64,000 bases of DNA. Source: an uncultured Alphaproteobacteria bacterium (GTDB lineage Bacteria; Pseudomonadota; Alphaproteobacteria; HIMB59; GCA-002718135). Made by a program: the position numbers and the translations under genes. Location of the stretch: positions 611,127 through 675,126 of the forward strand of contig CACMJS010000001.1 of assembly GCA_902614085.1 (NCBI GenBank), read 5' to 3'. Of this stretch, positions 404 to 2,610 are shown piece by piece. The stretch's first letter is position 1. Every line of letters starts with the position of its first letter. The notes below the pieces were generated by a model. The model worked only from the letters and a program-made list of their open reading frames with translations, made no database searches and was not told where the DNA came from.

Positions 404-1153
404 ATGGCAGGACACTCAAAGTTTAAAAATATTATGCATCGAAAAGGTGCTCAAGATAAAAAAAGAGCAAAAGTATTTTCAAGACTTGGAAGAGAAATAT
501 CTGTTGCAGTAAAAGTCGGTGGTGAAGATATTGAAAGTAATATTAGATTAAGATCTGCAATTGCTTCAGCCAAGTCGCTCAATATGCCAAAAGATAACAT
601 TGAGAGAGCAATTAAAAAAGGCCAAGGGAATGACCCTGATAGTAATTATGAAGAAGTAAGATATGAGGGGTATGGACCTGAAGGTGTTGCAATAATAGTT
701 GAGGCACTTACAAATAATAAAAATAGAACAGCTGCAGAGATTAGGTCATCTTTTAGCAAACATGGAGGTAATTTGGGTGAAACAGGTAGTGTTAGTTTTG
801 GTTTTGATAGATTTGGAAATATCACTCTTGATAAAAACTTAGTAAAAGAAGATCAGCTTCTAGAATTTCTTATTGAAAATAATAGTGAAGATTATGAAAT
901 TAATGACACTGAATATTCAATATACTGTGATCAAAATAATTTGCATGAACTTAATGACAAATTAATTAAACAGTATGGTCAGACTAACTCTGCAAATTTA
1001 ATCTGGAAAAGTAAAAATAATATAAATATTGGAAAAGATACAGCAGACAAACTATTTAAACTACTCGAAGTTTTAGAAGACAATGACGACGTTCAAGTTG
1101 TATCATCAAATTTTGAAGTTGATGATAATGTATTATCTTCACTCACAGCCTAA
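404..1153 (+). CDS. yebC: YebC/TACO1 family protein
   Basis: A 249-residue protein that opens with the family hallmark MAGHSKFKNIMHRKGAQD and carries the basic N-terminal domain and the GYGPEGVA...NNKNRTAAEIRSSFSKHGGNLGETGSV core. The family acts in the cytoplasm. Members were first described as transcription regulators, and bacterial and mitochondrial homologues have since been tied to translation of difficult (for example proline-rich) stretches. The ATG at 404 matches the family start exactly. In most alphaproteobacteria yebC is followed by ruvC-ruvA-ruvB; here a nuclease-like gene follows after 14 bases. Length is typical. Confidence 0.95.
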   Translation: MAGHSKFKNIMHRKGAQDKKRAKVFSRLGREISVAVKVGGEDIESNIRLRSAIASAKSLNMPKDNIERAIKKGQGNDPDSNYEEVRYEGYGPEGVAIIVEALTNNKNRTAAEIRSSFSKHGGNLGETGSVSFGFDRFGNITLDKNLVKEDQLLEFLIENNSEDYEINDTEYSIYCDQNNLHELNDKLIKQYGQTNSANLIWKSKNNINIGKDTADKLFKLLEVLEDNDDVQVVSSNFEVDDNVLSSLTA

Positions 1154-1167
1154 TGAAAGGAATATAG

Positions 1168-1461
1168 ATGCCTGATAAAGCCTGGAAAAAAAGAGAAAGA
1201 GATGTTGCAAATTATTTCAATGGGAAAAGGACACCTTTGAGCGGAGGTAATGGTAAAGTAACAAGAGCTGATGTAATTCACGAAGATTTATTTATAGAAT
1301 GTAAATTAAGAGCAAAGCATACAGCAATTAGTTTATGGGATGATACTGCAAAGCTTGCCAAAGAAGAGGGTAAGACACCAGTAATAGCATTATGTGAAAA
1401 AAATAGACCAGGTTTTTGGGTTATGGTTCATAGTAGTGATCTTGAAAAAATTAAAAAATAA
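1168..1461 (+). CDS. Small PD-(D/E)XK nuclease-like protein in the ruvCAB position
   Basis: A 97-residue, basic, single-domain protein with no signal peptide or membrane segment. The layout fits a PD-(D/E)XK (restriction/Holliday-resolvase fold) active site: E10 in an N-terminal helix (KKRERDVANYF), D35, then E44-C45-K46 at the end of a strand (EDLFIECK). The stretch GGNGKVTRAD before D35 is conserved, as I recall, in small phage and bacterial PDDEXK proteins. An AAAGGA ribosome site precedes the ATG. It lies 14 bases after yebC and 5 before tolQ, so it should be co-transcribed with both. In relatives this slot holds ruvC, ruvA, ruvB and often ybgC. Function as a junction resolvase is an inference from fold and position only; a repair or phage-derived nuclease is equally possible. 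Confidence 0.7.
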   Translation: MPDKAWKKRERDVANYFNGKRTPLSGGNGKVTRADVIHEDLFIECKLRAKHTAISLWDDTAKLAKEEGKTPVIALCEKNRPGFWVMVHSSDLEKIKK

Positions 1462-1466
1462 TTATT

Positions 1467-2180
1467 ATGGCAGATATAAATAGTACTAATTTATCGACTG
1501 AAGCTCCAGATTTTTCAATGCTTGCGTTATTTATGCAAGCTGACCTTGTAGTTAAATCTGTTATTATAATTTTAATCCTAGCCTCTCTTTACTCTTGGAA
1601 TGTAATAATTTCAAAAATTTTAAGAATTAGACAATTAAAAAAACTTGAAAAAGAATTTGAAGACATTTTTTGGTCTGGAAATTCATTTGAAGATTTATAT
1701 GAAACTTTAAATTTTAATAATACAGATCCAAAATCAAAATTATTTTGTGCAGCAATTTTAGAATGGAAAAAAAGTAAAACTCAGTTTGAAAATGATACAT
1801 CTGATATTAATTCTTTAAAAGATAGAATGATGAGATCAATGACTGTTGTTTTTAATAAAGAAAGTGAAAATGTTGAAAGAAATTTAACATTTCTCGCAAC
1901 TGCTGGATCAACTGCACCTTTTATTGGGTTATTTGGAACAGTCTGGGGTATAATGAATAGTTTTAAATCTATTGCAATAGCTCAAAATACAAACTTAGCA
2001 GTAGTTGCACCAGGAATTGCTGAGGCCCTTTTTGCAACTGCATTAGGTCTATTTGTGGCTATACCTGCAGTAGTTGCATACAATAAAATTTCAAACGACT
2101 TATCAAAATATTTTATATCCTTGGAAACATTTATGGATGAATTCTCAACAATTTTTTTTAGGCAATTAGAGAAAAAATAA
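1467..2180 (+). CDS. tolQ: Tol-Pal system proton-channel subunit TolQ
   Basis: TolQ (237 residues) is an inner-membrane MotA/ExbB-type protein. It forms a proton channel with TolR that energises TolA and so constricts the outer membrane at division. Three membrane segments are visible: about 26-48, 140-165 and 175-200, with the conserved TAGSTAPFIGLFGTVWGIMNSF in front of the second and GIAEALFATALGLFVAIPAVVAYN in the third. Length matches the family. The TolR start lies one base after the stop, so translation is probably coupled. The usual upstream ybgC thioesterase is missing. Confidence 0.95.
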   Translation: MADINSTNLSTEAPDFSMLALFMQADLVVKSVIIILILASLYSWNVIISKILRIRQLKKLEKEFEDIFWSGNSFEDLYETLNFNNTDPKSKLFCAAILEWKKSKTQFENDTSDINSLKDRMMRSMTVVFNKESENVERNLTFLATAGSTAPFIGLFGTVWGIMNSFKSIAIAQNTNLAVVAPGIAEALFATALGLFVAIPAVVAYNKISNDLSKYFISLETFMDEFSTIFFRQLEKK

Positions 2181-2181
2181 A

Positions 2182-2610
2182 TTGATTACCTCAAATAATT
2201 TAAACAAACGAAAAAAGCAAAGGTACACTCAAATGAGTGAAATTAACGTTACACCTTTTGTAGATGTTATGCTTGTTCTACTAATTGTTTTTATGGTTAC
2301 CGCACCTCTTCTAACGGTTGGTATTAAAGTTGATTTACCAAAGGTTAAAGCCACTGCATTAACTGATATTAAAGATCCAATTGAGATAACCGTTAAGTTA
2401 GACGGAGAAGTCTACATTGGAGAATCAAAAGTTGAAGTAGAAAATTTAATTCCGCGACTAAATGCTATTACTGAACAAAACACAGAAGCAAGAATTTATA
2501 TACGAGGTGATAGAGTAGTAGCTTATGGAAGGATTATGGAAATTATGTCCATAATAAATTCAGCAGGATATATTAAAGTTGCATTAATTACTCAAAATCT
2601 TGAGCAATAG
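2182..2610 (+). CDS. tolR: Tol-Pal system protein TolR
   Basis: TolR (142 residues), ExbD/TolR family, has one membrane helix at about 28-47 with the channel aspartate D28 in MSEINVTPFVDVMLVLLIVF, and a periplasmic domain after it. I use the TTG start at 2182: it adds the basic cytoplasmic segment (NKRKKQRYTQ) that relatives have before MSEINVTP, and it sits one base after the tolQ stop. The alternative ATG at 2233 would remove that segment. The gene abuts tolA with no gap. The unusual TTG may keep the level below that of TolQ; this last point is inference. Confidence 0.93.
   Translation: MITSNNLNKRKKQRYTQMSEINVTPFVDVMLVLLIVFMVTAPLLTVGIKVDLPKVKATALTDIKDPIEITVKLDGEVYIGESKVEVENLIPRLNAITEQNTEARIYIRGDRVVAYGRIMEIMSIINSAGYIKVALITQNLEQ

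Follow-up and report, generated by a model that had tools for sequence, protein, structure and literature searches.

A small nuclease gene, here called X, lies in the ruvC slot between yebC and tolQ of an uncultured alphaproteobacterium. Judging from its sequence and predicted structure, it probably encodes a working Holliday junction resolvase that takes the place of RuvC, at a probability of roughly three in four. A phage-type resolvase has most likely replaced RuvC in place. The window, meaning the whole 64,000-nucleotide stretch of DNA that was analysed (contig CACMJS010000001.1, positions 611,127 to 675,126), comes from an order, presumably marine and free-living, which we take to be HIMB59/AEGEAN-169. 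RuvABC is a core recombination machine, and none of it was found in the genomes searched across this order of presumed free-living ocean bacteria. These organisms offer a natural test of whether the coupling of RuvAB to a resolvase is needed. X would also exemplify how an enzyme of phages can assume a core function of the cell, and phages and cells may have this tool in common.

X starts with ATG, runs for 97 codons and is the sole open reading frame of the yebC-tolQ gap (Table 1). A preliminary description of this DNA had placed a single small gene of 97 residues there, and this is borne out, with NCBIfam models backing both neighbors. YebC, TolQ and TolR each score above the cut-off of their model; for TolR, two ExbD models outscore TIGR02801, yet both remain below their own cut-offs. 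The interval given there (1154-1466) is that of the entire gap, and X itself occupies 1168-1461. There is no ybgC in this gap. The four residues proposed as the nuclease site (E10, D35, E44 and K46) are correct, and they are unchanged in all 78 aligned X proteins, a set thinned for tree building that includes the window's protein and reaches down to about 43% identity. The full list of invariant residues in this alignment is W6, K7, E10, R21, S25, G26, T32, D35, E44 and K46.

Table 1. Features of the X locus, in window coordinates.
Feature	Position	Strand	Evidence
yebC, left border of the slot	404..1153	+	NCBIfam TIGR01033, 305 bits
Putative ribosome-binding-like site before X (AAAGGA)	1156..1161	+	sequence
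X, 97-aa PD-(D/E)XK nuclease gene, proposed Holliday junction resolvase	1168..1461	+	ORF, PHROG, model, conservation
E10 codon, first acidic residue of the site	1195..1197	+	same in 78/78
D35 codon (D of PD)	1270..1272	+	same in 78/78
E44-C45-K46 codons, (D/E)XK motif	1297..1305 (E44 1297-1299, K46 1303-1305)	+	E44 and K46 78/78; C45 67/78
tolQ, right border of the slot	1467..2180	+	NCBIfam TIGR02796, 269 bits
tolR, next gene of the Tol-Pal operon	2182..2610	+	NCBIfam TIGR02801, 129 bits (cut-off 127)

The gene is encoded in 91 of the 110 genomes of the window's family, including all 10 that are at least 90% complete, and the 19 family genomes without it are 53-87% complete. Measured against the window, its pN/pS is 0.057 (80 named contigs), with 0.134 for yebC and 0.030 for tolQ (57 contigs). 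Because of this wide presence and a pN/pS of 0.057, X is no chance reading frame. All 125 bacterial loci of the window's kind have X next to yebC, and in 123 tolQ follows, these loci overlapping between genome releases and so not being independent. The two loci in which tolQ does not follow seem to represent a single site of one assembly (G073). The order yebC-X-tolQ is kept in all seven loci of families f2 and f25. In G073, a second X copy (L124:7315-8217, and L099) is in frame with what we read as an orotate phosphoribosyltransferase-like sequence and is probably an assembly chimera. One genome of the window's genus, G033, carries a much more divergent X in the same slot (L122:7989-8288; 70-74% to its relatives). 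The YebC of this genome groups with that of the window, which points to either an in-place exchange of X or fast evolution.

X matches PHROG 2002 (E 2.5e-10, residues 3-94 on positions 16-112 of the 130-position profile), whose name, “Holliday junction resolvase,” is an annotation only. The f2, f25, G033 and viral-contig copies match it as well, at 2.7e-9 to 2.7e-6. No Pfam or NCBIfam family reaches its cut-off, Pfam listing one unrelated model at E 0.13, so the protein is easily left as “hypothetical.” Pfam gives no match to RuvC (PF02075), RusA (PF05866) or Hjc, and neither database gives one named RecU, which is presumably also a PD-(D/E)XK protein. Sequence-profile searches of the PDB with two X alignments found no chain at E<=10. 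A first structural model (pLDDT 70) has its elements in the order H-E-E-E-H-E-E-H, with a tRNA-splicing endonuclease as its top fold match and Hjc just behind. The second, made from a wider alignment of 34 sequences, reaches pLDDT 85.8 and pTM 0.79 with the same order, two of the strands being just two residues long. The PD-(D/E)XK core expected by the preliminary description (alpha-beta-beta-beta-alpha-beta) is present in these predictions, and their nearest folds belong to this superfamily. When the second model is run through Foldseek against the PDB, the top six chains (four entries) are all archaeal Hjc, with E 0.02-0.04 and probabilities of 0.92-0.97. Hjc is thus the nearest solved fold, at a weak E of about 0.02, and E is never below 0.019 for either model in the PDB. 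By VIA, the X model superimposes on the archaeal Hjc 1gef with Z 7.8, an rmsd of 3.6 and 87 aligned positions, a Z below 8 being one that alone may mean just a common arrangement. Other nucleases of the fold trail Hjc, at Z 6.6 and below. Among the 50 viral models listed, 11 match at E<=0.001, one of which is named Holliday junction resolvase, and five further models of this name have probabilities of 0.98-1.00; five models so named stand at 1.00.

Close copies of X are found on viral contigs. Scanning IMG/VR with a 14-row X alignment returned 140 viral stretches, the best 80 of which are 66-83% identical to X. In 81 of 83 viral loci (78 of 80 contigs), X is followed within 0.7 kb, and often directly, by the start of a large terminase gene, and the remaining two loci end 2 and 15 bases past the X match. 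By our own reading, a TerS-like frame stands before X in L159, L182 and L225, and not directly so in L119. Upstream of the TerS-like frame is an HNH-like one of 100-124 aa (L182:820-1194, L225:961-1317, L159:360-662), which is presumably Ref-like. The L182 terminase has its closest relative in Pelagibacter phage EXVC032P Baldr (77%), in which the gene before TerL is not X. Out of 50,697 phage records, only two hold a clear relative, both from gut or sewage phages and at 45-47%. In Bacteroides phage BS162P1 (L120:5323-6315), the X-like stretch lies in the C-terminal part of a CDS of 330 aa whose first domains are NUMOD4 and HNH_3, a homing-endonuclease-like fusion to a resolvase. Streptococcus phage Dp-1, for which RefSeq has a Holliday junction resolvase at the match, reaches E 0.3 and is not considered a clear relative. 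A viral scan seeded with the gut-phage copy alone found no relative. The PHROG 2002 phage resolvases (those of IMG/VR and BS162P1) thus resemble X in family, length and catalytic residues. They differ from it in location, as X sits in the chromosome, flanked by yebC and tolQ and with no visible phage genes nearby, whereas the viral-contig copies lie near the large terminase gene.

In a tree of 55 proteins, the f1 (the window's family, without G033), f2 and f25 hosts each form one group, with phage copies in between. This tree has 100 columns and keeps 16 of 39 viral rows (below 93% mutual identity), identical rows among the 22 wide ones having been dropped; for an earlier X tree, identical cores and the truncated viral rows L227, L228 and L229 were removed. 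Forcing all hosts into one clade is rejected at AU p 0.011, on 100 columns with long branches. Outside their own group, f2 and f25 (one representative each) have their nearest relative among the phage copies, at 73.7% and 75.8% respectively, and the nearest phage copy to the window's X is at 83%. The YebC tree, made without L145 (which has no yebC match), places f2 beside f99, yet the X hosts as one clade are not rejected (p 0.315). The X protein tree suggests several exchanges, and the single slot shared by all hosts suggests either one entry followed by in-place exchange or phage capture. X might still have the proposed function and be cellular at its origin, with phages taking it from these hosts. 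One old insertion would give the identical slot seen in three host families, and the f1 copies do group with a few phage copies. However, the phage copies reach far past the host range (43-71% to X) and occupy basal branches, a single host clade is rejected, and only 9 of 385 genomes drawn from the class carry X, so no wide cellular pool is seen. We therefore consider a cellular origin doubtful, and these sequences make a phage origin the probable one. The preliminary description had called X possibly phage-derived, and this is strengthened by PHROG 2002, by the close copies on 80 viral contigs and by the interleaved tree.

RuvC (PF02075) is found by profile search in none of the 110 family genomes and in 8 of 14 controls. 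In f2, the order's second family, three genomes were searched for RuvC and X; X is present and RuvC was not found. RuvB (TIGR00635, E<=1e-20) was found in none of the 162 genomes of the order searched, the 20 high-quality ones included (in the 20 listed genomes, 13 first-look candidates were scored each), and present in 10 of 14 controls. For RuvA (TIGR00084), no match is above the cut-off in any of 17 X-bearing genomes, the best having 18.5 bits versus the 85 required. Overall, 6 of 28 genomes pass, including four RuvC-bearing comparison genomes, as do 10 of 14 controls. The order-wide sampling in which the genes were not found stands at 162 genomes for RuvB, 113 for RuvC and 13 for RuvA. In the window's own genome (G000; 96% complete, 11 contigs), no RuvC, no RuvB and no RuvA above the cut-off was found, and its 18.5-bit RuvA match falls inside a 926-aa frame and is not taken as RuvA. 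In G110, a single-contig f2 genome, all three were likewise not found. The suggestion that the window's genome may lack the RuvAB motor is thus supported, and profile searches located no ruvA, ruvB or ruvC elsewhere in it. The RuvB_N model (PF05496) does match in all 110 family genomes, 95 of them above its low 27-bit cut-off. These matches are not taken as RuvB: the best has 32.4 bits, most lie either in frames with a length of about 420 or 540-610 aa or in short ones, of which several contain stops, and all 14 controls, archaea included, match the model too. Going by length, we read them as other AAA ATPases, probably ClpX- or FtsH-like.

Other junction enzymes that the preliminary description had brought up are present in G000 (RecG and YqgF) or were not found there (RusA). 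RecG matches in 28 of 28 genomes, 11 of them, including G000, above the curated cut-off; the G002 match ends at a contig end. YqgF is in 27 of 29 genomes, with 128 bits in G000, and in all four RuvC-bearing comparison genomes. RusA (PF05866) is found in none of the 17 X-bearing genomes, and of 40 genomes searched only G180 is positive. This assembly (L339; 390 contigs, 91% complete) has no RuvC match; it does encode RuvA and, at 95.5 bits, a member of the RusA family, which may be a further replacement.

Among the 385 alphaproteobacteria drawn from the class, RuvC is present in 353, X in 9 and both in none. Of the nine X-bearing genomes, two belong to f1, three to f2 in the same order, and four to another family, f25. 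All show yebC-X-tolQ, where L138, by comparison, has yebC-ruvC. A RuvC match is absent from all nine and from all 91 X-bearing family genomes; seven of the nine are listed as RuvC-less, and the other two (G412, G490) are not among the RuvC match rows. The hypergeometric probability that nine X genomes all fall by chance among the 32 RuvC-less ones is 6e-11, uncorrected for kinship, and since the nine belong to two or three lineages it is not a count of events.

The remaining 23 RuvC-less class genomes do not have X. Their yebC was located in 16 and not found in 7, and in 8 of the 16 the next gene after yebC is a different phage-type resolvase. In f99 (four genomes, all single-contig: L320, L321, L322, L324) and f119 (L335), this is a RuvC-like protein of 164-166 aa belonging to phrog_1770 (four were scanned, with E from 7.7e-22 to 4.9e-37; L320, the fifth, is nearly identical to L321) and without a Pfam RuvC match. 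In f50 (L323, L325, L326), it is a 168-aa protein matching Pfam PDDEXK_15, “Phage putative PDDEXK endonuclease” (E 2.7e-22 and 2.3e-21 in the two scanned, L326 being 88% identical to L325), and phrog_244. X and the f50 protein are not claimed as one family, as an hhalign probability of 37% denotes a weak likeness. Both other slot types have viral relatives (14 contigs at 23-46%; 23 at 45-63%), and 94 and 25 named phage records have relatives of the two. RuvA is above the cut-off in none of the three tested among these eight genomes (G258, G209, G333), which gave two strays of 18-20 bits, and it was not found in any of 20 genomes tested with X or another slot resolvase. In the other eight, inspection by eye shows no resolvase beside yebC: in G192 and G248 the contig breaks off, and G294, G330, G357, G368, G371 and G460 have none within 1.0-1.5 kb. 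In the single-contig L333 (G460) and L334 (G371), the 1.5 kb after yebC contain no ATG-started frame of at least 60 aa on either strand. As these eight show none by yebC, the loss of RuvC does not visibly call for a replacement each time. Repeated replacement at one slot may nonetheless be a wider pattern. We lean slightly toward a general model for small-genome alphaproteobacteria, in which the ruvC slot beside yebC would be a docking place where phage resolvases replaced RuvC several times independently, from at least three families (PHROG 2002 PD-(D/E)XK; PDDEXK_15/phrog_244; RuvC-like phrog_1770). The cell would then share its resolvase with phages, and perhaps exchange it with them, and free-living ocean bacteria could do without a branch-migration motor that is coupled to their resolvase.

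Several points count against X as a resolvase. At 97 aa it is short, PD-(D/E)XK proteins have many different roles and others of the fold come close behind Hjc. The genome also has YqgF, which could act as an alternative resolvase, and the nine genomes that link X to RuvC loss stand for two or three lineages rather than for nine independent events. X could instead be a nuclease of different function, for example one that cleaves the DNA of infecting phages, processes the ends made in recombination or cuts forks, and be in the ruvC slot by accident of entry. The fold is indeed common to repair, restriction and tRNA-splicing nucleases, all of which are in the same fold lists. We find this unlikely given the PHROG 2002 match, the Hjc fold and the coincidence of X with RuvC absence. 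X is also a single-copy gene under strong conservation that almost every fairly complete genome carries, unlike variable defence genes, and different phage-type resolvases hold the same slot in eight other RuvC-less genomes. It is more improbable still that YqgF (RuvX), or RecG alone without any resolvase, handles the junctions while X merely helps. Both genes are widespread here, eight RuvC-less genomes show no resolvase by yebC, and in Deinococcus RuvC and YqgF are described as putative junction resolvases that are both essential (in the part of PMC9601230 available). However, YqgF is also in all four RuvC-bearing comparison genomes, and therefore explains neither X nor its slot. A prophage remnant is rejected because no phage genes are seen near X in the window's list of reading frames (by eye) and the arrangement is constant across loci. 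Replacement of RuvC by X thus remains the preferred reading, and the non-orthologous replacement in a core recombination pathway put forward in the preliminary description is supported by the slot, by the Hjc-like fold and by RuvABC not having been found.

A mechanism can be proposed by analogy with Hjc. X would be a small PD-(D/E)XK endonuclease of the PHROG 2002 type, dependent on metal, that took over junction resolution from RuvC in an order of marine alphaproteobacteria with streamlined genomes. Two 97-aa subunits would bind a four-way junction as a dimer, and the E10, D35, E44 and K46 of each, together with Mg2+, would introduce nicks in opposite strands, so that two duplexes ready for ligation result. 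With no RuvAB motor available for coupling, branch migration would be done by RecG or occur spontaneously. In phages, where the gene comes shortly before that of the large terminase, the enzyme would resolve branched concatemers ahead of packaging, and the gene probably passed from phage to host.

Among the known systems, archaeal Hjc/Hje share with X the predicted fold and the E...D...ExK pattern, which we take to be that of archaeal Hjc. X is shorter, and has no sequence match in the PDB or to the Pfam Hjc model. We found no report of this RuvC replacement in searches of the open-licence PMC literature, and “ruv” and “Holliday” are absent from the main texts of three papers on HIMB59. The recruitment of phage recombination genes by bacteria has been described (PMC8987985), and the available part of that account does not mention an X-type case. 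Fewer than 2% of the bacteria sequenced by 2012 had neither RuvA nor RuvB, and these were mostly parasites, according to the portion of PMC3403352 at hand. The same portion reports that yebC lies near ruvC and has links with YbgC and TolQ. The RuvC-like resolvases of jumbo phages and poxviruses work without a RuvB motor (PMC7824862, in part), as proposed for X. Unlike X they are of the RuvC type and viral; the f99 and f119 slot genes are RuvC-like too. SPP1 G44P is a phage resolvase of which a variant partly replaces the host RecU in the laboratory (PMC3485210, in the part available); unlike X, it is RusA-like, has 236 aa and is not a natural replacement. In Firmicutes, RecU is, like X, another resolvase standing in for RuvC, but RuvAB is present alongside it and is encoded far from the recU gene (same portion of PMC3403352), whereas here RuvAB was not found and X is in the ruvC slot itself. 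That RuvC can be replaced by another resolvase is thus already known from RecU. What is new is a phage-type enzyme in the ruvC slot of genomes where RuvAB was not found, and the same slot holding other phage-type resolvases elsewhere.
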